Shown piece after piece: positions 961 through 58,143 of a DNA stretch of 64,000 bases. The DNA comes from Cladocopium goreaui. Its lineage: Eukaryota > Sar > Dinophyceae > Suessiales > Symbiodiniaceae. The DNA lies in NCBI GenBank assembly GCA_947184155.2, contig CAMXCT020003369.1:172501-236500 (forward strand), written 5' to 3'. The stretch's first letter is position 1, and every line of letters starts with the position of its first letter. Below the pieces are notes generated by a model. It did no database searches and was not told where the DNA came from. It saw only the letters and a program-made list of their open reading frames with translations. Position numbers and translations under genes: made by a program.

Positions 961-983
961 CAATAATTCACCAACCTGAAACT
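961..983. repeat. dispersed repeat CAATAATTCACCAACCTGAAA
   Basis: About 21 bases beginning CAATAATTCACCAACCTG are found here and again at 5,790-5,811. Unrelated flanks suggest the end of a dispersed element family. No coding content. Confidence 0.5.
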
Positions 984-39589: not shown

Positions 39590-40094
39590 CACATTCGTGA
39601 ATAAGCTATTGTCACACGACGCACCTACTCTTACAAGCTCTGGCTGACCCCAACATTCTTCCGCCGAAGCAGCAACCGACAACTATGCTGGAACTGGCAG
39701 TAGCGCTGGGAAGCTCGAATCTTGTTCAGCTGCTCCTTGACGCAGGAGCAACCGTTACCTCGGAAGAAAACTTAGTGCCACCTTTAGTGATTGCTGTCCT
39801 GCATCGGCATCGGGGAAATGTACAATTGCTCGAGCAGACCCATGGCAAGCTGTACCTATATGTTCTCTTTGTGACCACCCCTGGTACTGGTTTGGGCTCC
39901 TGTCACGACGTGAATATGTCAATGCAGTGCAAGTATCCGTTGCACAGGGCCCAGCGGATACGGTGGCTGACTTACTCACCCAAAGCAGAGACGCTATGGA
40001 TCATCTGAGAGCAGAATGGCCCTTGAACTCACAGCCCAACCTCACTGCCATGACAGAACGTGCCACCCTCATCTTGGATAGTGTAGTCCACTGA
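39590..40094 (+). pseudogene. ankyrin-like fragment of a shattered gene
   Basis: Frame 1 (about 39,625-39,835) reads LQALADPNILPPKQQP, MLELAVALGSSNLVQLLLDA and ENLVPPLVIAVLH, with the helix-loop pattern of ankyrin repeats (ELAVxxGSxxLVxLLLDAGA). After a frame change near 39,810, frame 0 continues: CSLCDHPWYWFGLLSRREYV, SVAQGPADTVADLLTQSRDA, RATLILDSVVH and a stop at 40,092. The single frame change may be an intron edge or an indel. It lies upstream on the same strand as the glycosyltransferase-like fragment. Confidence 0.5.
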
Positions 40095-40249
40095 CCTGTT
40101 GCCAAATTATGATGCCATCTCTCCATTCGTGTCGCCTGAGTGATATCGTCTTGACGTGGCTAGTAAGACATGGATGCACTAATGAGGCTAAGATTTAGGT
40201 TACTAAGAGAGTATGTCCCTGAAGGATGTATTTACCCTAGGGCAATTAA

Positions 40250-40394
40250 GTGCATATAGAGGCAGGATATAGCAACCAGTACATACTTGTTTCACTTGAT
40301 GTTACATCTTGCGCTGCCCACTGTGGCTCAAACCATCGACTAGAGCTGGTCATCCAGCCCTTAGTTTGGAGCTCGGGCTACTACTTCATCGCAG
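40250..40394 (+). CDS. candidate exon before a GC-AG intron
   Basis: Open frame ending VTSCAAHCGSNHRLELVIQP and LVWSSGYYFIA. It runs into CGCAG|GCAAGTTG, a good GC donor, followed by a 766-bp pyrimidine-rich stretch that ends in CACCACAG at 41,160. No family recognised. Confidence 0.35.
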
Positions 40395-41160
40395 GCAAGT
40401 TGTTCCCCTTAATCCCTTACTGGTTACCTCTCCCTCTTTCCTCACTTACTCTTTCACCGTCGGTTTATTGGCTTAACATCCCCCTGTTTCCTGGTCCTTC
40501 CCCGTGTTATTGTTTCCTTGTCATCTCTCCATTACTTGGTACCTGGCTTTTCTGGCCGCAGACTGGTCCGGACTGTCAGTACCTCTCCACTTCAATTTTT
40601 CCCTTGTTGCCCCCTGGTCCTTGAGACCTAGCCCTAACTCTCCTGGCCATTCACTGATCGGTACTGAAGGTGTGACTTTTTTGGTTTCACCTTTCCTTTC
40701 TTGGTTCTCTCCTCTCTTCCCTTGGTGCTGTTGTGCTTTGGCTCTTCGTGTCCCTTTCTTGTTTCTTGTGCTTCTGTGTCTCTCCTCTTTTTTCTCGTGT
40801 TTTTTTCCCTTGCTTCTGTCTCTTCTGGCCGTTTACTGGTCCGGGTGGTCAGTGCTCTTGCTCTTCCTCTCGTCCCTTCTCTCTCTTTGTTTCTTGTACC
40901 CTTCGGGTGTTGTGCCTGGTCTTTCTGGCCGCAGACTGGTCCGGATTTCCAGCGCCACCCTCATCTCCTCCTTTCCTTCCTCCTGCACTTTCCTCATCCC
41001 TGTCTTGATTGCTCTTCGGAACCGAAGCTTCAGTGTGGTACCTCTGGCCGCAGACTGGTCAGGGGTATCACTTTGCTGGCCCCTCAGTTTTACAATCCCC
41101 CCCTTCGAAACCAAGCACTGTCTCCGGCCGCAGACTGGTGCGGGCCTTTGCTTCTCACCA
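40395..41160 (+). other. pyrimidine-rich intron-like segment
   Basis: C/T-rich on the + strand over 760 bp, bounded by AG|GCAAGT and CACAG|AC. Embedded in it are five copies of a GC-rich 21-mer, given separately. The long plus frames here (LFLSCFFP type) are low-complexity. Confidence 0.5.
40551..41143 (+). repeat. five spaced copies of TCTGGCCGCAGACTGGTCCGG
   Basis: Copies start at 40,551, 40,824, 40,924, 41,043 and 41,123. The first 18 bases are identical or differ by one to four bases; the second copy has GTTTA for GCAGA. Spacing is irregular (273, 100, 119, 80 bp) and the DNA between is unrelated pyrimidine-rich sequence. Such a conserved short motif in a loose background could be a mobile-element end, an RNA structure or a protein site. 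Confidence 0.75.
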
Positions 41161-41961
41161 CAGACTCATGGTACTCCTCACAAGACAGCAAGCAGAGCAG
41201 ACATGGTTTGAACCTGACCCTAATGCGCAGTTCGATGATCTATTGGAAGCACTGGGCCTATATAAAGATATTTCTACTGAGTATGGCTTGAATCAGACTG
41301 TCCATCACCAATGGCGCTTTGAGATCCCTACAAGAAGTCTGGCGAGCCAGATAGGCACGATTATGAGATCAAGGTTTGGGGTTGCACCGGGACCCAATTG
41401 GCACAGTCTCTATCGCTGGGTCGTGAGCCAAGCTGCTGAATTCTTAGCTTTTCAGACTGTCTACCTTATCACTGACAATCGAGACCTACTAGCGGACACG
41501 GTCGCAAACCCTCCAGGGTTAGGCCACTGGCCCATGGTTGCTGCGTGGTGGAAAGAGAGAATCCAATACGTGGGCCCCTATGGTGAGCGCACCACTGTCG
41601 TCTTCGTGCCCATATCTGCAGACACGGGATTAGACAAGGTGCACCCTACATGGGCTGGCACCTACATACTTGATGCATGTGTCTTTCTCTTCCCGGCCAT
41701 CAACTTTGCCCTTATTGACAGCGATTGTGTGCCTGTGACGCTTTTCGGAATTCAGGAGCTGTGGCTATCGTGCACAGGCCATGATCATTCTGCTGAATGT
41801 TGCCTACAACCTGAACCGATGCCGAGCAGTCCAATTGCGCCAGCGCATAAGAGAGCACGATCTGTTGATACGGGGAGAGCCACGCAACAACCTGGCCCTC
41901 CTGTCAAGCTGTCAAAATCGCGAAGTGTTGAGAATCTTGCAGCCACTCACATGCGGGCACC

Positions 41962-42107
41962 GTCTCCAGATGCTACTTGCTTTTTTTGTGGACGGCGCCA
42001 ATCGGCTTTCGCCTGGTCACCACACTTTGAGGCTTGCGGATTAGCGGGGAATCGAACCGCCACCGGTAGTCTGTCCGCGACGTCAAGAGTCTCCAGATGC
42101 TACTTGC
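41962..42107 (-). mobile_element. tRNA-derived SINE 1 with 19-bp TSD
   Basis: The insertion occupies 41,981-42,088 and is flanked by a perfect duplication of GTCTCCAGATGCTACTTGC (41,962-41,980 and 42,089-42,107). On the minus strand it has a tRNA B box GGTTCGATTCC (42,048-42,058) and ends GCGCCGTCCAC followed by A7. The 5' part with the A box is missing. Same family as SINE 2. Confidence 0.85.
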
Positions 42108-42121
42108 AACTTTGAGGATGA

Positions 42122-42297
42122 GGTTGATTTTGGTGGGTCCTTTTTTGTGGTCGGCGCCCATTCATTGCCTTTCGGCGGGTCGCACTTGAACCTTCCGAGT
42201 GGACCAGCAGGGATTCGAACCACCACCGGCAGTCTGTCAGCGCTGGCAAGACCAACGCCATACCAACTGAGCCATCGGGTCGCCTGGTTGATTTTGG
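42122..42297 (-). mobile_element. tRNA-derived SINE 2 with 12-bp TSD
   Basis: Insertion 42,134-42,285 flanked by GGTTGATTTTGG (42,122-42,133 and 42,286-42,297). On the minus strand the tRNA-like head has A box TGGCTCAGTTGG (42,274-42,263) and B box GGTTCGAATCC (42,221-42,211). The body ends GCGCCGACCACAAAAAA, shared with SINE 1. The anticodon arm does not fold as a normal 5-bp stem with 7-base loop, so this is a SINE head and not a working tRNA gene. Confidence 0.85.
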
Positions 42298-42660
42298 GTC
42301 AGATCCGCCGAGTCCCCATCCAACTGACCGAGAAGAAGTGAAAAGTGGCCATTCCTCTCCCACTGCCCAATCGCTCTCTGGTTCAGCAGACAAGGGGGTG
42401 ACCTCGAAAGCACAGCAACTTTTGGCCAGTAAGGGTGTCATTCTAGTCAGCGAAGACTTCACCGGAGATCAATGCGGGATTAGTCATTGTCTTAGCGTCT
42501 GGTCACCAGAGCCCACTCCTGGAAACTGAACTTGCTGATCCTGAACGGGATCCAGATGAGCTTGCTACCCTTGCCGCCCAAGCCTACCGTGACCATGTTG
42601 AAAGTTACCTCTTGACCAGCCAGCCACCTCATGACACAGAAAAAAAGCCGTTTCTAGTGG

Positions 42661-43095
42661 TTTGCTTGGATCACCGCTGCTAGGCACCACCACCAGATTT
42701 GCAGCTGACTGGTGTCATGCATGGAGCCTGCTTGGGCAATGGTCTGGGTGGGTTACATTTCCGGTCCCTGAGACGGGTGTTTGGCCTTGGCATGGACACT
42801 TGCGAGGAATCCTTGATGGGTTCCAAGGCAGACAACCCAACTTTCATAAGTGGCCCGTCCTGCATATGAGCAAGGGGCTCTGCCAACGCTAAGCCTCCTC
42901 CTAGGAGAGGTCACTATCAGAGTGTTACCAGGAGACAGGTTCATGCGAAGATTCCACCTTCCCCGCTCTCCTATCAGCAGACCGTTGCTAGGCTTGTGGG
43001 AGCGAAGAGCCACTCTGGGAAGCCAGTGCCGTGCCCTCACCCAGGCAGCGGAACTCAGTTTTGGTCTCCCAGCGGCATGTAGTGCACCGAATTGA
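42661..43095. other. decayed coding-like DNA, no clear frame
   Basis: Short open stretches in more than one plus frame (for example FRSLRRVFGLGMDTCEESLM and KIPPSPLSYQQTVARLVGAK) between better preserved coding fragments. Probably part of the same broken gene. Confidence 0.3.
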
Positions 43096-43604
43096 CACGT
43101 CTTTGATGTAGTTCAGTGTGCCCAGCAAATTTACACTGGAGCTGCCGCCAGTACGTCAGTCGTTTCGCTCGACCGTCCGCAGAAGTGGGCGCAATGGGTC
43201 TTCTCGTTGGGAGATGTTTGGCAAGAGGACTCTCCCATGCCAGATCGACCCCTCACAGTGCATTGTAGTGGGCTGGGTGGAGGGCTGCTGAGCCCTGATA
43301 TCTTCTTTCAGAATCACGCACAAATGAAAGTCTATGGCCCTTCACTTGCAATGACAGATGACTGGGAGCAGCGCACCACTCAGCTAGGGTTTGACCAAAA
43401 CCACTCATGAGTACACAATCTACCAGCTGTTCTCCACTGCCCTGGAATGGAGTGCGTGGAAGGCTTTCCTTCCGGACAGGTTTGCAAATCACAAGCTCCT
43501 CATCACCCGAGCCATACGGCTGCTGACTGCTGCTACGATCCGGCCTGCGCATGCAAGGCCACCACATCCGACGTGGGTTACTGCTGTTCGTCAGATTCTT
43601 CGGT
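43096..43604 (+). pseudogene. coding fragment of the shattered gene
   Basis: Frame 1 (43,096-43,410): VVQCAQQIYTGAAASTSVVS, WVFSLGDVWQEDSPMPDRPL, TVHCSGLGGGLLSPDIFFQN. Near 43,400 the better frame becomes 2: YQLFSTALEWSAWKAFLPDR, THPTWVTAVRQILRCYSRG-like ending. Sequence of this kind recurs in dinoflagellate predicted proteins near the glycosyltransferase-like segment, to my recollection; its function is unknown. The frame is cut by the left end of the large inverted repeat at about 43,604. Confidence 0.45.
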
Positions 43605-43697
43605 GCTACAGTCGAGGTCCCTTTCTGGCCGCCATGTTTCTACTAGTTTTTTGGATCCTGTTTTGGGAGCCATGATGAAGCAGGTTTGTTGGCATTC

Positions 43698-44317
43698 GAG
43701 GCGCTCCAAGGCTTACCGAGGCCTGCCCGAGGCACGCATGGCAGCCTCAAGGTTGCTGCGCATGTGTTGGTCAAGCCATGGTTTGCCGCGCCTCCTCCTT
43801 GCACCTTTCACTGCTTCGTCAGAAAAGTGAAACAAATGCCCATAGAAAATATACATCTTGCGCTGGCTCCCAATCCAAGAGTTTTACTTGGTTCCTGTGC
43901 GCCTTCTAGTGCAGTTTCGGTTGCAGGCGGTTGGTGGGTTGCTGCAGTAGGTTTTGTTGTTGTCTTGCAGCGATATCGCTCATGTGGCTCTTGGGCGTGT
44001 CCTGGTGGGTTAGTTAGTGGCTGGACATGGTGTTGGGGTCGCATTTGGGGGTACCTTGCGGGTTGGATCTGAAGTCTCAAAGTCTTGTGATTGAAAGCTT
44101 CTCTGTCGGGAGTAGGGCGGTACTTAGTACCATGGGGGAAGGTTTTGGCGGCAGCAGGTTCAAAGTCCTTTATGGCCCTAGTTTCTAGGGTCACAAAGGA
44201 AACAACATGCGTGGAGGAATCTATTGCAGGTTCTGGCACGCGAGCTGAACCACTTGAAGCAGCAGCACAAAGCGTTGCGACAGGCATCTCAACTGTGTTG
44301 CTTTGGCTTGCAGATGC
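43698..44317. other. 620-bp segment present in only one arm
   Basis: Absent from the right arm, where TTGGCATTC and TCACTG are separated by six bases only. Open plus frame near the end: ASLSGVGRYLVPWGKVLAAA, SVATGISTVLLWLADAIC. It is either an insertion in the left arm or a deletion in the right. Confidence 0.5.
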
Positions 44318-44767
44318 AATTTGTCACTGTTTTCTGATGTTGGCCCTCTTGAGACCATCGCGGAGAACAAGAAAGAACAGAAGTCGGCAGCAAAGCGCCG
44401 CCAGCGGTTGCTAAAAGCAGCCCAACAGCCGCCAAGCTAGGATGTGCGTTTTCCCACAGCGCGGAGCGTATAGTTGATGAACTTGGCCTACTATACCCTG
44501 AAAACCGTGGAAATTTGCGGAAAAACATGGCCAGCGTATAGCGTATAGTTGGTTCAATTCGATAAAAAAACCCTACTAAAAAAATCTTTCTTAGAATGTG
44601 AGCTGACCGGCCAAAATGGATCTCACGCCACAGCGCGGAGCGTTTAGTAGGGTACTAAACCGTCTGGCCCGCAACACCAAAATTGTGTTCTCACCACAGC
44701 GCGGTGGGTTTAGTTGGGCTCTTTGTTTGTACGATTATTTTACAGATTCCATTTGTTTGCGTGACGG

Positions 44768-44967
44768 GCGCAGCACTTGAGAACCCCGTACGGCCATCTA
44801 AAAGGTTGAAGGGCGGCAGGCACAGCGCTTGAGAACCCTGTACGGCCATCTTAAAAGTTGAAGCGCGGCAGGTGCAGCGCTTGCGAACTCCGTGCGGCCA
44901 TCGTAAAGGTTGAAGCGCTGCAGGCGCAGCGCTTGAGAACCCAGTACGGCCATCTTTCCTTGCATGG
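44768..44967. repeat. 52-bp tandem repeat, 3.8 copies
   Basis: Copies start at 44,768, 44,820, 44,872 and 44,924, each exactly 52 bp apart: GCGCAGCGCTTGAGAACC, TACGGCCATCT, AAAGGTTGAAGCGCGGCAG. The right arm of the inverted repeat keeps a single copy (about 45,720-45,771 reversed), so the array expanded on one side. Confidence 0.9.
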
Positions 44968-45094
44968 CCCCCACAAGGGCCAACCACAAACTGAACCCCT
45001 GCGACCCCATTGTCAATGTTGAGGGTGTGTTGATGCTATTGCAACTAAGAAGTGAATTCCAATTTGAGGATGTGACCTGAGGCAGGGTTTCTTT

Positions 45095-45331
45095 TTGATG
45101 GCTATCAGTTCAAAAGGTGAAACTGCAACATTTAAGCTTCCGTCCAACATTGAAGATGGGGCGCGGGGGTTTAAACATACGTCAAATCCTCATCTTGGAT
45201 TTGCAACTGCAAGTCTGGAGTCTGGAAGCGCAAACATCGACGATTCCCCTTTGCAGGAGGCACTCTTGGGAATGCCGATGTCGGGATTCTCCACAGGAAC
45301 TGTAAATCTGAACACCACAAGCCGCTTTTGA
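45095..45331 (+). CDS. small ORF inside the inverted repeat
   Basis: 78 codons between the arms, with a composition that looks coding (GETATFKLPSNIEDGARGF, LESGSANIDDSPLQEALLG). No family recognised. It could be a fragment of a captured gene. Confidence 0.25.
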   Translation: MMAISSKGETATFKLPSNIEDGARGFKHTSNPHLGFATASLESGSANIDDSPLQEALLGMPMSGFSTGTVNLNTTSRF

Positions 45332-46302
45332 AGCATCTATAAATCTCCGAGCGTCACACCGGCTTTCGGTGTGTGTAGATAGTCCAATCTTCCAGAGAGT
45401 CAAAGATCGCGTTTATCTTTCGTCTTGGTGGAGGCTTCAGGTTGGGCTTGCCACTGTGTTGGGTGCTGTCCTTCTGCTGCAAGAGCGCTGTTGATTTCCA
45501 ACCACATTGATGAGAAAGAGTTCACTACTGCAATTTTTTCAGCTTTGTTCCATGGACGGGGCAAGCAACGAAAGATAGCTTTGTTGGGTTCCTCTGCAAA
45601 TGAGGGAAATCTTTCATCTGGGCCCCAATGAGGAGATCTACCCACAGGGCAGTGTGTGCTTGGCACCATCGGCTTCCGCCTTTCCACTGCTCCATGTGGA
45701 GGCGTCAAAAAGTATCCAGCCGCGCTTCAACCTTTAAGATGGCCGTACGGGGTTCTCAAGTGCTGCGCCCGTCACGCAAAAAATTCAATCTCTAAAATAA
45801 TCGTGCAAACAAAGAGCCCAACTAAACCCACCGCGCTGTGGTGAGAACACAATTTTGGTGTTGCGGGCCAGACGGTTTAGTACCCTACTAAACGCTCCGC
45901 GCTGTGGCGTGAGATCCATTTTGGCCGGTCAGCTCACATTCTAAGAAAGATTTTTTTAGTAGGGTTTTTTAATCGAATTGAACCAACTATACGCTATACG
46001 CTGGCCATGTTTTTCTGCAAATTTCCACGGTTTTCAGGGTATAGTAGGCCAAGTTCATCAACTATACGCTCCGCGCTGTGGGAAAACGCGCATCGTAGCT
46101 TGGCGGCTTTAGGGGTGCTTTTAGCAACCGCTGGCGGCGCTTTGCTGCCGACTTCTGTTCTGTCTTGTTCTCCGCGATGGCCTCAAGAGGGCCAACATCA
46201 GAAAACAGTGACATGGAGAATGCCAACAAACCTGCTTCATCATGGCCCCTAAAACAGGGCCCAAAAAAGTGGTCAAAACATGGCTGCGATAAAGGGACCT
46301 TG

Positions 46303-46597
46303 ACAGTAGCAACCGGACTTGGGACGCACAAAGAGAAAAAGGTATGAGTTGACATTCATGTTCAAGCTGCAGGGTCCCAAATCTGCTTGCACAACATGTG
46401 CGGGCAGCAGCGAAATTCTCCGATGGCTGACCCCATTTTTGGGTCCAAATATGGACCCCAAAATGGGGTCCAGAATTGGATCACATTTTCATTCCTTCTT
46501 TTAGGTCTTTGCTTGGGCCCCGTTTTGGGATCCAGATTTGGACCCAAAAATGGGGTCAGCCATCGGAGAATTTTGCTGCTGCCCGCAGTGCTTTTTC
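46303..46597. mobile_element. foldback element, copy A
   Basis: Contains a near-perfect hairpin at 46,399-46,587. The left arm starts TGCGGGCAGCAGCGAAATTC and the right arm ends with its reverse complement; arms of about 74 bp differ at a handful of positions and the loop is about 41 bp. Inside are GACCCCATTTTTGGGTC palindromes. A copy about 98 percent identical lies 8,404 bp away. The element also contains AG|GTATGAGT (46,340) and TTCTTTTAG|GTC (46,504), which look like splice sites. Confidence 0.8.
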
Positions 46598-46675
46598 CCC
46601 ACATCTTTGTGTGGGGTTCTTGTTTTTGATTCTGTATCCCGGGCTTCTCCTCCTCCTCCCGCCGCCTCCGTAACA

Positions 46676-47189
46676 CAACACACACAAACTTAACATACAA
46701 TAATTTAACACACACAAACTTAACACACACAAACTTAACACACACAAACTTAACAGACAATAACTTCACACACACAAACTTAACATACAATAATTTCACA
46801 CACACAAACTTCACATACAATAATTTCACACACAAAAACTTAACACACACAAACTTAACACACACACAAACTTAACAGACAATAACTTCACACACACAAA
46901 CTTAACATACAATAATTTCACACACACAAACTTAACATACACAAACTTAACACACACAAACTTCACACACACAAACTTAACAGACAATAACTTCACACAC
47001 ACACAAACTTAACACACACAAACTTAACAGACAATAACTTCACACACACAAACTTAATATACAATAATTTCACATACACAAACTTAACACACACAAACTT
47101 CACACACACAAACTTAACAGACAATAACTTCACACACACAAACTTAACATACAATAATTTCACACACACAAACTTCACATACAATAATT
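46676..47189. repeat. CACACAAACTTAACA minisatellite
   Basis: About 510 bp made of two alternating unit types: CACACACAAACTTAACA (16-17 bp) and one with an added TACAATAATTTCA or GACAATAACTTCA (28-30 bp). The order of types varies. Minus frames of repeated VCVKFVCVKLLYV are by-products. A short piece of the same repeat is at 51,470-51,517. Confidence 0.95.
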
Positions 47190-49765
47190 TTTTTTCCCTC
47201 CGATTTGGCCGATCGCACTAGGCACGGTCCTTACAATTGCGTAAGCGGTGAGAAGCAGTAAAGTATAGGACACGTGTGGTCCAAAAACTCTGGCAAATCA
47301 TCACTAAAAACAAACAAAACAAAACAAACAACGCAACCAAAAACGACCCGCAAATCCCCCAGCCAGATTTGCGTTTCGCCACAAAGCAAAACAGCGAAGC
47401 AACAAAGAAAGGGGCAGGGCCCAACAAAAAACCAAACCAAATCATGAGATTTGCCATGGATACAGTGACCTAAGCCACTGTATCATACTCAAAAACATGC
47501 AAACTAATTAATTGCGGCAGTGCATAGAGTATAGTACACGATCATCCAGACTGTCTTACCTGAGAAGAGAGAAACGAATCCAATTTGCAGGCAGACTGAA
47601 GTGTAACACGACAGAGGCCACCTGTATGGACTGCTTGTCAATAGCAACTTCGCATCGCGGCTGTCCACTCTGTATCGTTCAGCGTATGCACGGCAGTCTG
47701 TTCCTGTCAATATGCACCACCGCAAGGGATTGTAATCTATTTCCCCCCCTAGGTGGGGAGGAGAGCACTGGACAGCCTGCAAAATGGTGTGAGCACTCGC
47801 AGGAACCGTCAGAGCGCAATGGGCCCAAGACCCTAAGACCATGGGTAAAAAGGTGGCTATAGGCCTGCCCGGCACAAAACGGCCATGACAGACTGATGAA
47901 ACTTCCGACCATAGCATGGGCTCGTGAGCACTTCCAGTATGATACTGCCGCTATGTATGCAAAAGTCGCATTCGCATTGCTGTCAAACTCGTTCCCCTAA
48001 ACTATGGAGGTTGAAGTGGTTCACTGCGTCAGCACCAGGTCTCACACAGGGGTCACTAGGCGTCATCGTCCCAGCAAGTCCTGCAGGGAGGACCAGAAGC
48101 ACCGTATGTTAGCTGTGTTTTCCAGACGAGGCCACTCTCTCCCACCGAGTGGGCCATTGCCAGGGCAGTACAGAACATCCGCACAACGAACCATGTGGGC
48201 AGGCTTTGCTGCACTCGGGCGCTCCAGACTGAACAGCAGGAAGCACAACTGGACAGCGCCAGTAGTGCTCACTGCAGTGCAGCCTAGTCCATGGCTCTAC
48301 CGGGAGTCTACCGCCCCTCTCGAAAAAACGCAGAAACAGAACAGAGCGAGAAGGGCCCCCCCCAATACAGCCAAAGAAAGAGCCACAAGACTCACCACAC
48401 CAAACAACAAACGAATTCACAGGGGAAAAAAGGAGAGGGGGGGACGGTGACAAAAACGCCCCACCTCGGACAAATCCTTAGTCACTACCAAATGAGTATG
48501 ATGTAGCAAAGGTGAAACGAAAAGTTATGATGTAGAGCGGTAACCTCGGTATCCAGGCAACAGTTGAAGCAAAACGACAAAAAGCCAACCAAAAGAAATC
48601 TGCCATCATGGGGGGAAGCACTAAGGGGGGAGCGGCCAAATCATAACACACACAACGACACAAGCCACACAGAGAGAGCGAGGAGAGGAGCCAGGAGGCA
48701 GCAGAGGACAGAGTGAGAAAGGACACACACGCACTAGAAGGGGTACGACAGTGCCTTAGCGGAGTCCAAAAAGGGGCCAAGGATCATACAATGATGAATA
48801 CCTCAGTGAGGGAGCACACAGCACCCAACAACACATGAAGCATGGTGTAGAGGGAAAGATCCCCACACAGGGCCAGAGGCCTTTGTTGCCATGAGACATG
48901 ATGAGGAGGGGAGACAATGCGCAACAAACACTCCACGCACAGAGGCAAGGCAACCAGGCCGTCGCCGGAAGCAACGATACCCAGAGGGAGGGACCAGTAA
49001 AACCTGGGCCAAGGCGCCAAAGAGGACCATCCGAGGGGGAGGGAGGGCCACGTCAGGCAGGGAACAGGCAACAAAAACCAGAACAAGATAACAAGGCACC
49101 AACACCTACTGTAGCTCAGCTAAGGGCAAAACCTAGGGATTAGTCACCGAATTCAGATACCTTAACTAGTGGGAGGGGTGGGAAAGTGGGTGTCTCGTCA
49201 AGACTAAGTCTGGGGAGAATCACAACAGCTTCCTTACCCATCGATGATTGTCAGGCAAAGGCTGCGAGAGCGTGCGCTCGTGCAATAGGCTTCATGGTGG
49301 AGGCGACCTTAGTATAGTCTAAGCTCTCGACTGGACAACACATTCTGAAAACTAGTGCAAAGAGAGATCGTGCTGCCCGATCTGTTATGCCTAAGTTGGC
49401 ACTCACACACAACTACAAATGCGGCTACCAACTGTTGAGAGATCTGAGTAGGTAGGGGCCAGGCATGTACAGCATCATGAACCTAACAATTATAAATGAG
49501 GAAGAGCTGTGTCCCCTACTGCATACCAGTGCACCTGTCACGTCTTTGGACAGACACACCAGTATGGACAGTAACCTTAAGTAGAGCTGACGACGGGACC
49601 AATAGAGATTTAGGTCAGCTCCCACCACCATTGTTGATGAAACAAAGGCCGAATACTGTGTGAGGGAGCAATGGGGAGTGAAACCGAAATAAGACAAAGG
49701 AGGAAGGGGGGGTAGGGGTGGACACAAAAGGGGGATAAGTGGTGCGAGCAGGGGTGAGTTGGGGA
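47190..49765 (+). pseudogene. scattered plus-strand coding remnants
   Basis: Short open stretches with coding character, in different frames: 47,893-47,998 (LMKLPTIAWAREHFQYDTAA, KVAFALLSNSFP), 48,130-48,287 (SPTEWAIARAVQNIRTTNHV, CCTRALQTEQQEAQLDS), about 49,220-49,313 (LPIDDCQAKAARACARAIGF), 49,360-49,455 (VMPKLALTHNYKCGYQLLRD). Between them are purine-rich segments (48,300-49,140) that on the minus strand resemble the pyrimidine-rich intron at 40.4-41.2 kb. No family is recognised. Probably exons or remnants of the same large locus. Confidence 0.3.
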
Positions 49766-51455
49766 TCATGTCATACCTCTCGTGAAATGTTCCAAATAAT
49801 GCTTTTTATCAGATGTGATAGTGTCGTTCCATTCGTTGGTGAGTCCAAACGAAACTGGGTTCACTCCTTGCTGAGCAATAGCACGCTGATGAAGCGCTCC
49901 GATTGCCCTTTGATGTTCGTCCAGATCTTCAGGAGAGACTCTCTTGCGGACTTTCCTGTCCGGGAAATTTCGTTCCCGCAGGTTGGTTTGCAAGGCATGT
50001 CCCGCTACATAAACTGCAGGTTGCTGGAATAAAACTCGCTCTGCAAATCTGTGGAGATGCACTGTCCACTCAGCAAACATATGGCTGTGTGACAGTTGAT
50101 TCCTGAGTCGCGCTTCTGTTTGATGAAGGCTTCCATTGGTATGCCACAATCGCAACAGACTGTAGTTGGAAGGCCAATCAAGTGGGCACAGTGTGGCTGT
50201 TTCTTTCCACTTTTCAGGTGTAAGCCCTACTTGAGAGGGTATGATCACTTCCAGAGTAGTGCGATTCGGTCCCAACGGTTGAAGACCTCGCATCATATAT
50301 GGTTCAACGAGCCCTGTGGTATATCCATGGATGAGCTCCTGGAAACATCCAGCCATTTGAAAGTCTTCATCCAATCCAAGGCGAAAACCAGGCATGTTTT
50401 TGGCAGCAAATTTAACTGCCTGGAGTAGCTGCTTCGTTCCCTCCACTGGAGTCTCGTCACAGGAACGTTTCGGGCACGTGATGTTGATTTCTTGTGGTTT
50501 CTGCGCATTCTCAGGAGCATTCTCGAGAAGTTTGGGAGCAATTTTGCTGGCCCAGCTAGCCGGGAACCATGCCAGTAGGGCAGAGGCACCACTCGTAAGG
50601 TCCACTAACCCAGTAGTGCGTCGATGAGGCCGATCTGTGACCAGGACTTTAACTGGGCCACTCGGCGCTCGACTTCGATTCACCTCAGAGCTCTCTCGGG
50701 CCGAGCCAATGAATTCAGACAGGATGGGCCGAAACCAATAAGTGGCATACAACAGGCATTCAGTTTCTGGAGTCACCATGGATTCAGCCAATCTCATCAG
50801 CGAGCTCATCGCCTGGGCGAGCTTCTCTGCCAGTCGTATTGTGAGAGCTCTTGCCGTCTGCTGGAGGACATCCTCCACACTGGCAATTTGCCCGCGCAAC
50901 CACAGTTCACAGGCCACACTCAGCAAGATGCGCGCAAACTTTTCTTGGATGGCAGTCAAAGACAACGTCAATCTCGCCTGTAGCCACAGCGGCGGGAGAA
51001 TCCCAAGGTTTTCGGGTATGCAAAAAGGTTTCCGTTTGGTTGGACATTAGTAATCAGAATTGCGAGCTGGTCAGCTGCACTCGCAATCTCGTCCTCAGAG
51101 GTATCTTCAGCTGCATCAGGTATGGGTGGGCACCACGCAACCATCAGTAGAGGCTGCTTCCTCATCCGAGGAGGGGTCGTTCACTGTGTCTCCTGCACCC
51201 TCAGGGCTTGCGAGTTTCATAGACCCTGGATCAAATTGGCGATCCAATGTGGCCAAAAGGTCCGGCTGCAACCGATGGGCATCGAAGTAATGGATACCCG
51301 GGATTACGACAAGTTGCCGATCCTGTATACCCACGTGAAAGAAGACTTTGTGGCCTCTATGTCGATGAACAAGTGCTGGGGATCCATTATAGGCTGCACA
51401 TAGCCAGAGGGGAGATCTGTAGCCATCAGCAGCGTAACCATCAAGTATTCACGAT
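49766..51455 (-). pseudogene. inverted coding block, unrecognised protein
   Basis: The main minus frame runs from about 51,050 to 49,766: LTAIQEKFARILLSVACELW, ETECLLYATYWFRPILSEFI, LVDLTSGASALLAWFPASWA, NITCPKRSCDETPVEGTKQL, MMRGLQPLGPNRTTLEVIIP, NPVSFGLTNEWNDTITSDKK, over 400 codons without a stop. Upstream pieces in other frames continue it: 51,334-51,116 (GHKVFFHVGIQDRQLVVIPG, DPSSDEEAAS) and 51,165-51,000 (DTSEDEIASAADQLAILITN). The first codon of the longest frame is TTG and the frame is open before it. It ends at CACGAGAG|GTATGA, which could be a splice donor, with pyrimidine-rich DNA following on the minus strand. I recognise no domain. Its orientation is opposite to the neighbouring coding fragments. 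Confidence 0.5.
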
Positions 51456-51469
51456 CAATCGAGCAGGGA

Positions 51470-51517
51470 CAAACTTAACATACGCAAACTTAACAGACAA
51501 TCACTTCACACACACAC
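51470..51517. repeat. short piece of the CA minisatellite
   Basis: ACAAACTTAACATACGCAAA and CAGACAATCACTTCACACAC match units of the minisatellite at 46,676-47,189. It directly abuts the first unit of the 159-bp satellite. Confidence 0.8.
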
Positions 51518-53995
51518 CGTCGTTTTGCGTGGCAGGCGTGGTACACATGGCACTGGGTGGCGCACTTGGTTTTTTTTCCGTCCAACGCCATGTGGCTTCC
51601 GCCAGGTCGTTCAACAGCTATCCAAGCCTGTTGCAATTAAGATTAATTATTTAATTCGCACAGGGGCCGATGCTGTAGTGGCCGCAAAAGTAAACTGGAA
51701 GAGGACCGATACATAGTACAGAGGCTTGTCACGTTCCAGGGTTTAAAAACGGAGAAAGCGTAAAAATTGCAAGAATGACCTTGACGATCAAACTTGACGG
51801 GAATTGGAGTAGTTTTCAACTACAAACAGCGCACCTCCGCCAAGCGTCACTGATAGCGCACCCTCGTTTCACGTGGCAGGCGTGGCACAAAACTCGCATC
51901 CACCGTCGTTTTGCGTGGCAGGTGACATCCACTCTCGTTTCACGTGGCAGGCGTGGCACAAAACTCGCATCCACCGTCGTTTTGCGTGGCAGGCGTGGCA
52001 CTCCTGGGTGGCGCGCTTGGTCCGGATTTGTCGCCTGTGACGCCGCGGCACTTTGCGTGGCAGGCGTGGCACTTGGTGACATCCACCCTCGTTTCACGTG
52101 GCAGGCGTGGCACAAACTTGCATCCACCGTCGTTTTGCGTGGCAGGCGTGGCACTTATGGTACTGGGTGGCCCGCTTGGTCCGGATTTGTCGCCTGTGAC
52201 GCCGCGGCACTTTGCGTGGCAGGCGTGGCACTTGGTGACATCCACCCTCGTTTCACATGGCAGGCGTGGCCACAAAAACTCGCATCCACCGTCGTTTTGC
52301 GTGGCAGGCGTGGCACTCATGGTACTGGGTGGCGCGCTTGGTCCGGATTTGTCGCCTGTGACGCCGCGGCACTTTGCGTGGCAGGCGTGGCACTTGGTGA
52401 CATCCGCCTTCGTTTCACGTGGCAGGCGTGGCACAAAACTCGCATCCACCGTCGTTTTGCGTGGCAGGCGTGGCACTCATGGGTGGCGCGCTTGGTCCGG
52501 ATTTGTCGCCTGTGACGCCGCGGCACTTTGCGTGGCAGGCGTGGCACTTGGTGACATCCACCTTCGTTTCACGTGGCAGGCGTGGCACAAACTCGCATCC
52601 ACCGTCGTTTTGCGTGGCAGGCGTGGCACTCATGGTACTGGGTGGCGCGCTTGGTCCGGATTTGTCGCCTGTGACGCCGCGGCACTTTGCGTGGCAGGCG
52701 TGGCACTTGGTGACATCCACCTTCGTTTCACGTGGCAGGCGTGGCACAAACTCGCATCCACCGTCGTTTTGCGTGGCAGGCGTGGCACTCATGGTACTGG
52801 GTGGCGCGCTTGGTCCGGATTTGTCGCCTGTGACGCCGCGGCACTTTGCGTGGCAGACGTGGCACTTGGTGACATCCACCCTCGTTTCACGTGGCAGGCG
52901 TGGCACAAAACTCGCATCCACCGTCGTTTTGCGTGGCAATCGTGGCACTCATGGTACTGGGTGGCGCGCTTGGTCCGGATTTGTCGCCTGTGACGCCGCA
53001 GCACTTTGCGTGGCAGGCGTGGCACTTGGTGACATCCACCTTCGTTTCACGTGGCACCTGTGACGCCGCGGCACTTTGCGTGGCAGGCGTGGCACTTGGT
53101 GACATCCACCCTCGTTTCACGTGGCAGGCGTGGCACAAAACCTGCATCGACCGTCGTTTTGCGTGGCAGGCGTGGCACTCATGGTACTGGGTGGCGCGCT
53201 TGGTCCGGATTTGTCGCCTGTGACGCCGCGGCACTTTGCGTGGCAGGCGTGGCACTTGGTGACATCCATCTCGTTTTACGTGGCAGGCGTGGCACAAACT
53301 CGCATCCACCGTCGTTTTGCGTGGCAGGCGTGGCACTCATGGTACTGGGTGGCCCGCTTGGTCCGGATTTGTCGCCTGTGACGCCGCGGCACTTTGCGTG
53401 GCAGGCGTGGCACTTGGTGTCGACGTGGCAGGCGTTCGCATCCACCGTCGTTTTTGGCAGGCGTGGCACTCATGGTACTGGGTGGCGCGCTTGGTCCGGA
53501 TTTGTCGCCTGTGACGCCGCGGCACTTTGGGTGGCAGGCGTCTTGGTGACATCCACACGTCGTGGCACAAAACTCGCATCCACCGTCGTTTTGCGTGGCA
53601 GGCGTGGCACTCATGGTACTGGGTGGCGCGCTTGGTCCGGATTTGTCGCCTGTGACGCCGCGGCACTTTGCGTGGGTGGCGCGCTTGGTCCGGATTTGTC
53701 GCCTGTGACGCCGCGGCACTTTGGGTGGCAGGCGTGGCACTTGGTGACATCCACCTTGTTTCACGTGGCACGCGTGGCACAAAACTCGCATCCACCGTCG
53801 TTTTGCGTGGCAGGCGTGGCACTCATGGTACTGGGTGGCGCGCTTGGTCCGGATTTGTCGCCTGTGACGCCGCGGCACTTTGCGTGGCAGGCGTGGCACT
53901 TGGTGACGTCCACCTTGATTACATGCAAGGTCGTTTTGCGTGGCAGGCGTCTCACTGATGGCACTTGGTGACATACACCTTGATTTCACGTGGCA
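51518..53995. repeat. satellite array, 159-bp unit
   Basis: The unit contains three copies of the 17-mer CGTGGCAGGCGTGGCAC at spacings of 41, 77 and 41 bp. The two 41-bp pieces are similar (ATCCACC.TCGTTT); the 77-bp piece carries CTTGGTCCGGATTTGTCGCC. Unit starts near 52,090, 52,249, 52,411, 52,565, 52,724, 52,883 and 53,043 show periods of 159, 162, 154, 159, 159 and 160. Edges are partial: a rearranged start at 51,518-52,010 (with a non-repeat piece at 51,560-51,840) and degenerate, deleted units after 53,400. Because 159 is divisible by three, frames of up to 349 codons stay open on both strands; I do not regard them as genes. Confidence 0.95.
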
Positions 53996-54059
53996 CGCGG
54001 TGGGCACAATCTCACGTCCATGACGCCAGCAGTTGATCATGACTATATACCAGGTATGA

Positions 54060-54279
54060 TTACCAGCCACAGGGCATGCAGAAAGAGTTCGCAAAAATTT
54101 GCGGCTTCGCCCGAAAGAGTGCAGAATATTACTTTGGTCAGCGGAAGTATGGAGAGCACACCATCGCTTTGATAGAGGGCTCTGCCATAAAAGCTCTTTC
54201 GGGAAGCAACGTCGGGGAAAAAACCATCAGAGCCTGGTGGAACTCGAAGAAGGCGAGTGAGACACGTCGTGAGACCTAG
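54060..54279 (+). pseudogene. short coding remnant
   Basis: Plus frame from 54,076: MQKEFAKICGFARKSAEYYF, HTIALIEGSAIKALSGSNVG, IRAWWNSKKASE. The composition is coding-like (Lys, Glu, Ile rich) and unlike the satellite just before it. No family recognised. Confidence 0.35.
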
Positions 54280-54404
54280 TGTTCAGCACACACCCTTGGA
54301 TCCCACAAAGAATTTCCGTGGTAAGCATATCTTGTTTCTTTTCTGGCCTTCAGTGACAAGTCACTATCTAGTGGAAGAAACACCACCAGACGCGCAACTT
54401 TGTC

Positions 54405-54545
54405 ACACACATACACATACATACATTCATTCATACATACATACATACATACATACGTACGTACGTATGTACATACAGACATACATACGTACGTACGTAC
54501 GTACATACATATATATATATATACATACATACGTACATGCATACT
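54405..54545. repeat. CATA/CGTA microsatellite
   Basis: Tetranucleotide array of ACAT and ACGT units with an AT tract. YIHTYIHTYVRTYV frames over it are artefacts. Confidence 0.95.
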
Positions 54546-54675
54546 ATCTTTTCACATACTTTCACACACAGTCTTTCACCACCTCCTTTGTCTTTCCTTC
54601 CTTCTCCGACCCCGCTACAACCTTTGAAACTCATTATTGGAAGAAGTTGACTTGTGGGGTTATCCGGTCCTTTAA

Positions 54676-55035
54676 TTCTCTCTCTGCGTCCCACTTTGTT
54701 TCTTGTACAGTAGCAACCGGACTTGGGCCGCACAAAGAGAAAAAGGTATGAGTTGACATTCATGTTCAAGCTGCAGGGTCGCAAATCTGCTTGCACAACA
54801 TGTGCGGGCAGCAGCGAAATTCTCCGATGGCTGACCCCATTTTTGGGTCCAAATATGGACCCCAAAATGGGGTCCAGAATTGGATCACATTTTCATTCCT
54901 TCTTTTAGGTCTTTGCTTGGGCCCCGTTTTGGGATCCAGATTTGGACCCAAAAATGGGGTCAGCCATCGGAGAATTTTGCTGCTGCCCGCAGTGCTTTTT
55001 CTCTCTCTGCGTCCCACTTTGTTTCTTGTACAGTA
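54676..55035. mobile_element. foldback element, copy B, with 37-bp direct repeats
   Basis: The same element as at 46,303-46,597 (hairpin at 54,803-54,991), here at about 54,713-54,998. It is flanked by a perfect 37-bp duplication, 54,676-54,712 and 54,999-55,035, that begins TTCTCTCTCTGCGTCCCACT and ends TTTCTTGTACAGTA. The duplicated stretch is a polypyrimidine tract ending in ACAG, like an intron 3' splice site. Removing 323 bp (element plus one repeat) joins frame 2 before it to frame 1 after it. Confidence 0.8.
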
Positions 55036-55935
55036 TCACCCTTAGGGCAAACTGCTGTTTCTGCGAGCCTGCTTTCCACAGTATGTGACCGCACCTGTTC
55101 CGGAGAGAATACGGGACTTGCAATCCATAAAGTGGTCAATGAGTTTGCCTGCTTCCCGGGAACCACCAAGGTTGCGGCAATTGCCTCTCCGCCTGAAATG
55201 CTGCGTCTTGCAACAGGGGAACGGCGGGTGATACTCCTTCACTGTTTAGAGGACCGACTCTGTGTGTGGCGTCCGGATTCACTCACAGACCTGAGTTACA
55301 ACATTGTACTAATAGAAGGACATCCAGCGTGGAGTGGCCGCGCCAGGCATGCATAAACCCCTCAGGTCATCCCGCATGGGGTTCGATGTGAAGGGCTCTT
55401 ACGAGTGCTCTCATGGGTGAGCTTTGATCTCCCAGACCATTGCAAACGCACCCTGAGTGCTTTATTACAGGCTGCTGGTAATGGATGCTCGGACCTGCAG
55501 ACAGTGCCATGTGAAGGCAGAGACATGCGAGATGACCCCCTTGTCACCGAACATGACCTGCGCCAGGTACTGATTGACATGATACCCATTCTTGGACAGG
55601 CTCATGCGGAAGGTGGAAACCTTATGCGAAACCTGCTTGCTGAATTTTTACGAGGCTTCTCCCTGTGAACCCTAATATTTTTGCTGGACATGGTGTTGCC
55701 ACAGCTGGACGCCTATCATGCAGGCCGACAGCTTCAGCACCTACAACCGTGGATCAGTGTTGAGCTTGCGCAACAGCAGGCACGAGGTCAACAAGGCACA
55801 AAGCTCGCGGCTAAATACCTATATGAAGCCTATGCTGGATTTCATGTCATCCAGCTGCTCACAGATGGCGCTCCGATTTTGCTCTTCACCCTCACGCTTC
55901 ACCTTGGAACCTATGTGCAGCTGGAAATCTAGGCA
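55036..55935 (+). pseudogene. coding fragment upstream of helicase motif
   Basis: A single plus frame across 900 bp with only two stops (TAA at 55,354 and TGA at 55,666): TGLAIHKVVNEFACFPGTTK, EMLRLATGERRVILLHCLED, LCVWRPDSLTDLSYNIVLIE, DHCKRTLSALLQAAGNGCSD, VTEHDLRQVLIDMIPILGQA, LLDMVLPQLDAYHAGRQLQH, YEAYAGFHVIQLLTDGAPIL. I do not recognise a domain here. Position and strand suggest it belongs with the helicase-like fragment after 57,946, the TIR elements having inserted between. A continuation, KRILIATGASDW, runs up to 56,012. Confidence 0.45.
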
Positions 55936-56012
55936 GCATGGAATCCAATGTGATGGCAGACAGGGGGGGGGGAAAGCAGATAAGCGTATTTTGATTGCGA
56001 CCGGGGCTTCTG

Positions 56013-56695
56013 ACTGGGGAGGACCACTTCTTGGAGTCCAAAAAGCCAATGTGTTCACGGCCCCGAGAATGAGATTACTGCAGTGACCTTTTTAGTGAAA
56101 AATGGCGCAGCTTTAACAAAAAGCAATACTCTTGCAAGTGTAACGGAATGGCAGGATTCCGGCGAACACGGTTGCTGATTGAAGGTCTCTAGCCCCGCCT
56201 GCATGTTGCCAATCTTTGCCGAAGCACCATGTTGTTTGGAATTGTTTGGGTGTTGTTGTCGCAGGCTTTCGCAACATGGCGTGGGTGCGGTGCTGATTCT
56301 GCTGCGACATTGCTGGCGGGATGCTTTTTGCGTTGGCATAAAACCGGATAAATCCTTTGTTTGCATTGGGGGAAGAGTTTCGATTTCATCACTCCAGCAG
56401 ATTCCGTAAGAAGGCTAGAGATGCAAAACTTCGGTTTTACCACAGTTTTGTGCCAGTTTTGGTGTCTTTAGCTGCGGAGTCTTGCCGGAGTCGGGCGGAG
56501 TCGGTACACCTGCTGAAACCCTATTTACAATGGGGAAAGGGTTGAAAAAGTTCCAACTTTGTGACTCCAGACGACTCCGCAAGAAACCGCAAGATGCGCA
56601 AGATGATGTCATGCACTGAACTGTTCGATTTGTTTGATGCCCATTTTTGGGGTTGGAAAGGTATATAGAATTTGGACTCCAAAGGCGTCCCCAGT
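56013..56695. mobile_element. TIR element, copy 1 (683 bp)
   Basis: Begins ACTGGGGAGGACCACTTCTT and ends with the reversed version GGACTCCAAAGGCGTCCCCAGT. It is nearly identical to copy 2 about 1,031 bp downstream but lacks about 200 bp found there (57,360-57,560). No transposase; the interior has no coding sense. No target-site duplication recognised. Confidence 0.75.
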
Positions 56696-57043
56696 TGCGT
56701 TGAAAGCTTGCTGCTTAAACAAAACCCAACTTTGATTTATTTGCGTAATGTAAAGAACTTCGTGTTTCGAGCAGGTCGCAAGGTTCCACAGTGCCAAAAA
56801 TGGGATTGCCACGCGCTACCGCTTTTCGCTTTGGACAGGGCCATTTCGAGGTTTTCAATTTCTATTTTAATAGCAGGCGAGACCAAAAACGGGCGCGCCA
56901 AATCCAACGCGTTGGAGCGTGTGGCAATCCTGTTTTTGGGGTTGCGACATGACGGTCGGAACGCACCCAGCTGCTTCAAAAGTTCGCCAGAAACCATGAA
57001 ACCACAAAAGGCAGGAAGGATGACACAAACAGCCACGTGCTGA
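56696..57043. other. spacer between the two TIR elements, with a hairpin
   Basis: It contains a 24-bp inverted repeat with three mismatches: CCAAAAATGGGATTGCCACG... at 56,794-56,817 against 56,916-56,939. The plus frame of about 123 codons across the region gives no recognised protein. Confidence 0.5.
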
Positions 57044-57925
57044 ACTGGGGAGGACCACTTCTTGGAGTCCAAAAAGCCAATGTGTTCACGGCCCCGAGAA
57101 TGAGATTTCTGCAGTGACCTTTTTAGTGAAAAATGGCGCAGCTTTAACAAAAAGCAATACTCTTGCAAGTGTAACGGAATGGCAGGATTCCGGGGAACAC
57201 GGTTGCTGATTGAAGGTCTCTAGCCCCGCCTGCATGTTGCCAATCTTTGCCAAAGCACCATGTTGTTTGGAATTGTTTGGGTGTTGTTGTCGCAGGCTTT
57301 CGCAACATGGCGTGGGTGAGGTGCTGATTCTGCTGCGACATTGCTGGCGGGATGCTTTTTTCTGTCTTCGCGTTGGCACTGGATTGTTTTGTCACAATTG
57401 GGCGTCGCACTGCTCAGTTTTGTTTTGGTCTCTTGATGCGTTGTTTGTTTTTGGGCTCCCCCCCTCGCCCCTACTAGACTCCTAACGCGGCAACTTTGCG
57501 GGTCGGGTTGTGCATGTCGCCCGGAGTTCAGTATCATCCGGTTAAAGAATAATAGTATATATTTAAAACCGGATGAATCCTTTGTTTACATTGGGGGAAG
57601 AGTTTCGATTTCATGACTCCAGCAGATTCCGTAAGAAGGCTAGAGATGCAAAACTTCGGTTTTACCACAGTTTTGTGCCAGTTTTGATGTCTTTAGCTGC
57701 GGAGTCTTGCCGGAGTCGGGCGGAGTCGGTACACCTGCTGAAACCCTATTTACAATGGGGAAAGGGTTGAAAAAGTTCCAACTTTGTGACTCCAGACGAC
57801 TCCGCAAGAAACCGCAAGATGCGCAAGATGATGTCATGCACTGAACTGTTCGATTTGTTTGATGCCCATTTTTGGGGTTGGAAAGGTATATAGAATTTGG
57901 ACTCCCAAAGGCGGTCCTCCCCAGT
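57044..57925. mobile_element. TIR element, copy 2 (882 bp)
   Basis: Terminal inverted repeats of 27 bp: ACTGGGGAGGACCACTTCTT...GGAGTCC at the start, and GGACTCCCAAAGGCGGTCCTCCCCAGT reversed at the end. Apart from the 200-bp internal segment, it matches copy 1 almost base for base. Coding sequence of the helicase-like fragment resumes within 30 bp of its right end. Confidence 0.78.
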
Positions 57926-57945
57926 ACTCATCATTCAGCCTGTAG

Positions 57946-58143
57946 CTTTCCAGGACTTGGCTGGCATTTATGGATGAAAGCCAGCAGTACGTCAATTATC
58001 ACGAAATCGCTGCACTTGCTGCCATCCAACAGCCGGCGCTTATTGTATTTGTAGGGAACCATAGGCAAACACCCGGGGGCCTCTCCAAAGGAAGAGCTGC
58101 GGCAGCAAATAGGCAGAAGCTGCTACACCGAACTGTTGGGTAG
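57946..58143 (+). pseudogene. SF1 helicase-like fragment
   Basis: Open frame LAFMDESQQYVNYHEIAALA, LIVFVGNHRQTPGGLSKGRA, AAANRQKLLHRTVG then stop. A hydrophobic strand followed by DESQ matches helicase motif II (Walker B), and VGxHRQTPGG matches motif III of superfamily 1 (UPF1-like) helicases, where GDxxQ is usual; here Asp is replaced by Asn. The P-loop and motifs IV-VI are absent. It is the last piece of the plus-strand coding locus before the copia element. Confidence 0.65.

Follow-up and report, generated by a model that had tools for sequence, protein, structure and literature searches.

Known LINEs are compact retrotransposons, roughly 3–10 kb in length, that usually carry one or two ORFs. 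The nearest known system to the element analysed here, compared by its published description, is SymbioLINE-Dnmt, a set of Symbiodinium LINEs whose ORF1 contains a DNMT (de Mendoza et al. 2018, PMC5890265). As published, SymbioLINE-Dnmt has two ORFs, conserved UTRs and TSDs, and no poly-A tail (PMC5890265). Retroelements of far greater length have been described in bdelloid rotifers, where the Terminons, giant retroelements of the Athena-type Penelope-like class, reach up to 40 kb; they are endonuclease-deficient, PLE-type and telomeric, they contain hammerhead ribozymes, and their accessory ORFs include esterase/lipase and other enzymes (PMC6431247).

We analysed a 64,000-nt stretch of the 1.17-Gb Cladocopium goreaui genome (the window), and the comparisons below make it very probable that it contains two dead copies of a family of giant, polycistronic LINE-type retrotransposons of this dinoflagellate. 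An earlier note, made from the window alone, had described ankyrin, DSDC, VWQEDSPMPDRPL and SF1-helicase pieces lying in order on the plus strand, and tblastn with a relative from the same genome confirms this, at 39618–58140. Chance is ruled out because the plus-strand ORF B pieces have E values of 1e-29 to 1e-116. Less broken relatives elsewhere in the genome hold the pieces linked and in the order seen in the window, and a search for the opposite outcome, namely best matches in unrelated, unlinked proteins, did not find it. The note had read the pieces as a very large multidomain protein or a helicase-bearing transposon. What holds of this is a single gene-bearing mobile element with long multidomain ORFs and a helicase, but the element is LINE-type, with an endonuclease (EN) and a reverse transcriptase (RT) upstream.

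The older copy lies on the plus strand, and nothing of the element is left 5′ of its ORF A remnant, which covers aa 179–338 of the ankyrin protein with one frameshift (39619..40088; tblastn identity 73% and 40%) and matches Pfam Ank_2 at E = 2.7e-4, under the curated cut-off. In the linker between ORF A and ORF B, three intercistronic hairpins on the plus strand are recognized by our covariance model R1: hairpin 1 at 40537..40586 (66.9 bits, E = 4.8e-18), hairpin 2 at 40910..40959 (65.1 bits, E = 1.7e-17) and hairpin 3, of a longer stem type, at 41029..41078 (29.1 bits, E = 4.6e-6). ORF B then appears as aa 39–307 (41168..41962, plus strand, 60% identity by tblastn), is broken by an insertion of ~305 nt (41981..42285) whose flanks are 14 nt apart in contig C4430, and continues as aa 322–845 (42287..43609, plus strand), a piece that holds VWQEDSPMPDRPL, frameshifts and an internal gap at aa 547–607; by tblastn its sub-pieces are aa 322–546 at 42287–42960 and aa 608–845 at 42949–43609. 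It resumes with aa 845–1195 (55034..55967, plus strand, tblastn). By tblastn and repeat comparison, aa ~1196–1505, with the Walker A motif, are gone and repeats stand in their place (55968..57921). The SF1 helicase motif II/III region, aa 1506–1578, is found at 57922..58140 (plus strand, 79% identity by tblastn), and the last recognizable part of this copy is a short piece at 58139..58217, on the minus strand and reversed compared with relatives. Within ORF B, the labels glycosyltransferase-like for the DSDC region of aa 39–307 and alpha/beta-hydrolase-like for the neighbourhood of aa 845–1195 in relatives (GFSAGSYTG) are motif-only labels with zero Pfam support, and a Pfam scan of the DSDC region gave no match.

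The large gap in the older copy (43609..55033) is inserted material, since its flanks at 43608 and 55034 adjoin, or nearly so, in all seven examined contigs that hold both: they are adjacent in five (L010, L011, L015, L018 and L022) and within 6–9 nt in the other two (L026 and L028; contigs C685 and C3655). The seven include C1906 and C2766, which are near-identical and were counted as one locus. The interrupting repeats noted earlier are present, as a 436-nt inverted repeat of 97% identity (44322/45778), a 15-bp minisatellite (46677–47187), a 159-bp satellite (in 51.9–53.9 kb) and a repeat in two copies at 99% (in 56.0–57.9 kb). The block at 49.8–51.5 kb, which had been read as an inversion within one copy, is something else: it comes from another subfamily and has a 3′ end of its own, which rules out that reading and identifies a second, younger copy. 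This copy runs on the minus strand from 51.47 to 47.19 kb and is 5′-truncated at ~51468–51474, at ORF B aa 1995. It consists of ORF B aa 1995–2562 (49769..51445, minus strand, open for 426 aa at 49769–51046), a 3′ region that includes the conserved tail TGTAAGGACCGTGCC...TCGGCCAAA (47197..49768, minus strand) and an A-run at its own 3′ end (47189..47196, minus strand, T8 on the plus strand). Its homology reaches the 3′ end at 47188, with 87.5% identity over 4357 columns, and its ORF B has 93–100% aa identity to 98 places among the matches listed. Units of one 15-bp minisatellite flank it on both sides (the right side judged by eye) and would mask any duplication. Structure prediction for the 426-aa ORF B C-terminus was uninformative (mean pLDDT 42).

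Across the genome there are hundreds of copies, and the 3′ tail pattern was found 738 times, against 0 in the control. The conserved tail is common to 16 inspected ends, 14 of which carry an uninterrupted run of A8–A12 (the runs are interrupted in C685 and C783), and the 3′ end showed no LTR. Given how short the A-run is, it could be templated. Visual inspection of C1164 and C1574 revealed no TSD, the examined stretch of C1164 stopping before its 5′ end. These common A-run ends, together with the element's own EN-RT upstream of all window pieces, rule out the DNA transposon with terminal repeats that had been suggested. The flanks beyond the tail differ across the 16 inspected ends, and this bears on whether the copies could have arisen by tandem or segmental duplication or as an assembly artefact. 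C1906 and C2766 are 99.9% identical over ~18 kb, and therefore some copies duplicate one locus. For the copies with inspected ends, however, duplication is refuted by the differing flanks, the copies are spread over many contigs, and one sits within a minisatellite, so as a general explanation duplication is extremely improbable.

Putting the copies together gives the order DNMT-motif ORF1, EN-RT-RNase H ORF2, small ORFs, ORF Z, ankyrin ORF A, ORF B, 3′ tail and A-run. We infer an intact LINE-type element of ~33 kb, a length obtained by summing parts of different copies. ORF1 has open frames of up to ~2272 aa, ORF2 is 2027 aa, several ORFs of 135–430 aa lie between ORF2 and ORF A, and ORF B is 2533–2562 aa, so that ~20 kb with conserved ORFs and hairpins lies downstream of ORF2. 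No complete 5′ end was present in any copy compared. A comparison of C1164 with C1574 had hinted at a 5′ end at 'CCCTATCCCC', and this was dropped on finding that C1164 and five further copies share sequence upstream of there. Rough first-look candidate counts fall unevenly (ORF B end 1928, A 833, Z 610, RT 992, ORF1 end 555), and 31 of 54 RT matches have no Z, A or B match downstream among the matches listed.

Curated cut-offs are not reached by any of the EN, RT, helicase and DNMT matches. The RT (PF00078, E = 6.1e-6) has YIDD (YxDD), PGPDG and KAFERV motifs. N-terminal to it is an APE/EEP-type EN (PF03372, E = 6.7e-4, profile positions 3–204 of 225; PF14529, E = 0.014) with QET, GGDFN, LDRV and SGHY in order. 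The RNase H of the C612 copy exceeds its cut-off (PF13456, E = 6.4e-5, 23.3 bits versus 21.6). For the putative C5-DNA methyltransferase of ORF1, motifs I and IV are seen in copy C6131 and VI and X in copy C5542 (PF00145, E = 0.011), and the best PDB matches, though weak (E 0.08–0.3), are of DNMT3 and DRM2 types. When the ORFs of C5542 were scanned whole against Pfam, EN, RT and DNMT went undetected, with EN and RT showing only in sub-region scans. Of the 2685 candidates of a PF00145 genome search, 123 were scored, and comparison by eye placed none of these beside the ORF1 or RT places. ORF B encodes an AAA_19-like SF1 helicase with weak Viral_helicase1 similarity (E = 0.0058, under the cut-off). 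PDB searches with ORF B, EN and RT pieces gave nothing meaningful.

ORF2 upstream rules out a non-autonomous element without RT. It also weighs strongly against a host giant multidomain gene family that is not itself mobile and owes its copies to repeated retroposition of its mRNAs by ordinary LINEs. Such retrogenes are a known dinoflagellate feature in the part of the literature consulted (PMC12014239), and A-run 3′ ends and 5′ truncation would suit retroposition. However, the EN-RT-RNase H and DNMT-motif ORFs lie upstream at a fixed distance on the same strand, the 3′ ends number hundreds, and the compared copies keep the non-coding linker and 3′ region; a retrogene origin is thus very unlikely. 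An endogenised RNA or large DNA virus would account for the big gene set and the Viral_helicase1 similarity, and the sources consulted report protist DNMT genes that derive from viruses. We nevertheless regard a virus as most unlikely, for an IMG/VR close-relative scan returned zero relatives of ORF B or the RT region, and the scanned ORFs contain neither a capsid family nor any polymerase family besides RT. The A-run ends, EN-RT and dispersed 5′-truncated copies are instead LINE traits, and of the LINE features sought the following are present: RT with YxDD, EEP-type EN, RNase H, an A-rich common 3′ end and 5′-truncated copies.

Purifying selection acts on ORF B (strongly) and on ORF A, and two subfamilies that are ~64–66% identical in DNA have the same ORF order. 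A covarying RNA hairpin, with no Rfam match, stands ahead of several cargo ORFs. A hairpin pair occurs at a fixed distance downstream of RT in 10 of 10 RT matches checkable against the hairpin listing; for ORF1 the hairpin is missing in 2 of 13 checkable matches, one at a contig end and one unexplained, and strict matches are absent before O135, O217 and O145 in C5542. An ordinary DNMT-bearing LINE might have acquired the cargo as a passenger by 3′ transduction, a process known for L1, with cargo-free LINEs still mobile; the ORF1-ORF2 architecture is that of SymbioLINE-Dnmt, which in its published description is without cargo. Against this, the same order in two diverged subfamilies means that the union of LINE and cargo is old, selection acts on the cargo, and the cargo hairpins accompany all ten checkable RT matches. 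We consider this composite rather unlikely; it is a question of origin and is compatible with the giant LINE-type retrotransposon that we favour.

Set beside SymbioLINE-Dnmt, this LINE-type element has the same kind of host, element genes under purifying selection as published there (PMC5890265), and a DNMT-motif ORF just upstream of an Exo_endo_phos-RVT-RNase_H ORF. It differs from the published description in its A-run 3′ end and in the ~20 kb beyond ORF2. The Terminons, as described, offer a functional parallel as RT elements of similar size with accessory ORFs and mostly 5′-truncated copies, whereas here there is an EEP-type EN, a LINE-type RT-RNase H and dispersed copies, and an Rfam search of six loci gave no hammerhead match at E ≤ 0.5. 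Helitrons and other helicase-bearing DNA transposons likewise carry a large helicase ORF in a mobile element, but the helicase here is AAA_19-like SF1, the 3′ end is an A-run, EN-RT is encoded, and Pfam scans of the element ORFs found no Rep/HUH family. The giant LTR retrotransposons Burro and Ogre, from the account consulted, share extreme length and extra domains (PMC6431247); unlike these LTR elements, ours has LINE-type enzymes and, as noted above, a 3′ end at which no LTR was seen.

From its parts, we propose how the element would have worked. A promoter at the unseen 5′ end would yield an RNA of ~33 kb, in which spacer hairpins would set off one cistron from the next, with spliced-leader trans-splicing or other processing as their most plausible purpose, so that each ORF could be translated. 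ORF2 protein would bind the conserved 3′ tail, nick target DNA and, by target-primed reverse transcription, start copying from the A-run; the ORF B helicase would aid copying or unwinding of so long a template, and newly made DNA may be methylated by the putative ORF1 methyltransferase. Unfinished copying would leave 5′-truncated copies, and the younger copy would have inserted into a minisatellite within the material splitting the older one. The roles of the hairpin in trans-splicing and of the helicase are conjecture from sequence. The hairpin loop carries AG and some spacers have a pyrimidine-rich stretch nearby, but at least 18 pyrimidines in 20 precede only three of eight ORFs (O217, Z and B), and so the tract with AG as a trans-splice signal stays conjecture. 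We tentatively entertain, at somewhat less than an even chance, an operon-like LINE that spans ~33 kb and comprises eight to ten cistrons; in it, the reused covarying hairpin would be a processing or trans-splice acceptor module marking cargo genes, the element's own helicase would make copying of a long RNA feasible, and dinoflagellate spliced-leader trans-splicing would lift the usual two-ORF limit.

A ~33-kb LINE in which ORFs for a helicase, for an ankyrin protein and for several unknown products are kept under selection alongside a methyltransferase-like ORF1 would stretch the limits of size and gene content of target-primed retrotransposons, and would add a second, independent case next to the rotifer Terminons. 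Such an element could account for the 'giant multidomain' gene models that recur when dinoflagellate genomes are annotated, and its repeated hairpin would be a testable handle on multi-gene RNA handling in trans-splicing organisms.

The genome searched was the 1.17-Gb assembly of 6202 contigs that contains the window; in it, the spliced-leader motif of dinoflagellates has 172 exact occurrences, compared with none for the reversed control, which makes a dinoflagellate host very probable. The gene pieces that the earlier note had placed in order on the plus strand hold up: by blastn and tblastn, they run from 39618 to 58140, and seven further contigs (C4430, C1906, C2766, C612, C1579, C685, and C3655) carry collinear relatives. 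C1906 and C2766 are 99.9% identical across ~18 kb and, as probable duplicate contigs, were counted as one locus. The gap flanks of this old copy of the giant element, at 43608 and 55034, directly adjoin in five of these contigs and are separated by 6–9 nt in the alignments of C685 and C3655. Because the flanks adjoin or nearly adjoin in relatives, the 11.4 kb between them is a later arrival. The old copy is 80–91% identical to C4430 versus ~67–74% to young copies, and is a member of an older subfamily. It lacks ORF B aa ~1196–1505, and repeats occupy that place. A repeat present twice (99%) lies at 56013–57926, the site expected for ORF B aa 1196–1505, with 300-nt reference pieces spaced 1.03 and 1.23 kb. 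Another repeat, at 43604–46311, has 436-nt inverted arms that are 97% identical to each other. A relative of this repeat also truncates the C5542 copy of the element on its 5′ side, and the repeat looks like an independent mobile element that recurs. Within the repeat truncating the C5542 copy (9811–9946 of L055, a stretch of that contig), a palindromic segment matches Rfam MIR6450 on each strand, below the gathering score.

The block at 49.8–51.5 kb, previously read as an inverted part of one copy, is instead ORF B aa 1995–2562 of a younger subfamily, with its own 3′ end. The 426-aa open part of this minus-strand young copy is 93–100% identical to the 98 places scored of 1928 in a first look at the genome. 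Homology with C1164, C1574, and C5542 extends across a 2.6-kb 3′ region up to an A-run at 47189–47196 (minus strand), the 3′ end of the copy. The copy is bordered on both sides by units of one 15-bp minisatellite (right side read by eye), an arrangement that would mask any target-site duplication, and a 159-bp satellite at 51921–53919 lies beside its 5′ end.

Of the 98 places listed for ORF B, 10 keep a frame of 2533–2562 aa open; its domain labels apart from helicase should be taken as readings of motifs. Upstream lies ORF A, with ankyrin repeats (PF12796, E=1.4e-8); on C1574, at the start of stretch L035/L036, an 844-bp inversion sits inside ORF A of a copy otherwise 98.7% identical. Upstream of ORF A on C5542 are ORF Z and then ORFs of 145, 258, and 284 aa, plus smaller ones of 217 and 135 aa; for Z and for the ORFs of 284, 258, and 145 aa, the comparison extended to their C4430 counterparts. 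ORF2, upstream of the small ORFs, matches endonuclease (PF03372, E=6.7e-4) and reverse transcriptase (PF00078, E=6.1e-6) profiles below their curated cut-offs and, on the C612 copy, RNase H above it (PF13456, E=6.4e-5). Scans of longer ORF pieces recovered neither endonuclease nor reverse transcriptase and gave only a weak RNase H trace. The ORF2 frame is exactly 2027 aa in 14 of 54 listed places, one with an internal TAG, and is split into two overlapping frames on C5542. Immediately ahead of RNase H on L055/L054 is a cysteine-rich stretch (CECGDYHC...) reminiscent of SET/post-SET domains. A distantly related endonuclease region (29–33% identical to ORF2, E=1e-40) at 429–1504 (+) of another stretch, L014, and at the same locus in L013, is another LINE family that perhaps shares ORF2's clade; by eye, a 1110-aa open frame at L014 2806–6138 (−) resembles a DIRS-type retrotransposon polyprotein.

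ORF1, immediately upstream of ORF2, keeps an open frame of exactly 2272 aa at 12 of the 79 places listed. It bears C5-methyltransferase motifs, weakly backed by a profile match (PF00145, E=0.011), and its PDB matches are of DNMT3 and DRM2 types (E 0.08–0.3). On C5542, its 5′ part is truncated by another repeat. Since ORF1 measures 6.8 kb and 26.0 kb separates its end from the 3′ end on C5542, we infer an element length of ~33 kb, summed across copies rather than read from one to a 5′ end.

A covarying RNA hairpin recurs ahead of several cargo ORFs. C5542 has eight strict matches on the sense strand and none on the opposite strand, and shuffled C5542 gives a mean of 0.095 and a maximum of 1. 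Seven of the eight lie in spacers or just 5′ of the conserved starts of O284, O258 (named by aa length), Z, A, and B (three at B), and one falls within the 3′ region; no strict match precedes O135, O217, or O145. The outer stems vary in sequence between sites, yet each complements its own partner, and only this stem is a free test of pairing because the search pattern already includes part of the inner stem. Its pairing was equalled by 2/5040 permutations in C5542, 4/720 in C4430, 1/24 in both C3655 and C384, 2/24 in C685, and 1/6 in C612. In an alignment of 14 sequences hand-picked from 28 sites, omitting other stem layouts and over-similar sites, 92% of cells are paired, two-sided changes occur at 11 of 16 pairs, and the covariation score was matched in 0/500 shuffles. 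Within the window, a covariance model (E≤0.5) finds three clear and two weak matches in the A–B linker of the old copy and one weak match in the 3′ region of the young copy. Rfam searches across six loci at the same threshold gave three matches, to two microRNA families, all below gathering scores. We conjecture that the hairpin might act in processing or trans-splicing.

The element works like a LINE and, set beside the published description of SymbioLINE-Dnmt, is probably related to it. In the available text of that description (De Mendoza et al. 2018, PMC5890265), a DNMT ORF lies upstream of an Exo_endo_phos-RVT_1-RNase_H ORF, and TSDs are present without a poly-A tail. The element studied here fits neither the reported poly-A absence nor the short structure, and was therefore kept out of SymbioLINE-Dnmt. 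Among the giant elements treated in "Giant Transposons in Eukaryotes" (PMC6431247), a review, are Terminons and LTR elements; its available text mentions no giant LINE. Among the titles and abstract openings listed from the open-access literature, there was no published account of this composite element, with subscription journals and preprints outside that scope.

A degenerate 3′-tail pattern has 738 exact occurrences in the genome versus none in the control. Among 16 distinct 3′ ends examined, 14 carry an uninterrupted run of at least 8 A, the A-runs of the other two (C685 and C783) are interrupted, and the sequences beyond the ends are unlike one another. For ORF B, dN/dS is 0.17 between near-identical copies (dS 0.02), 0.095 between C1164 and C5542 (dS 0.33), and 0.045 between C3655 and C4430 (dS 1.5); a single ORF A pair gives 0.26. 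Each of the seven remaining comparisons pairs different subfamilies; there dS has reached saturation, but third codon positions are the ones that change most. From these ratios and the third-position excess, we conclude that the genes stayed functional during the spread of the family.
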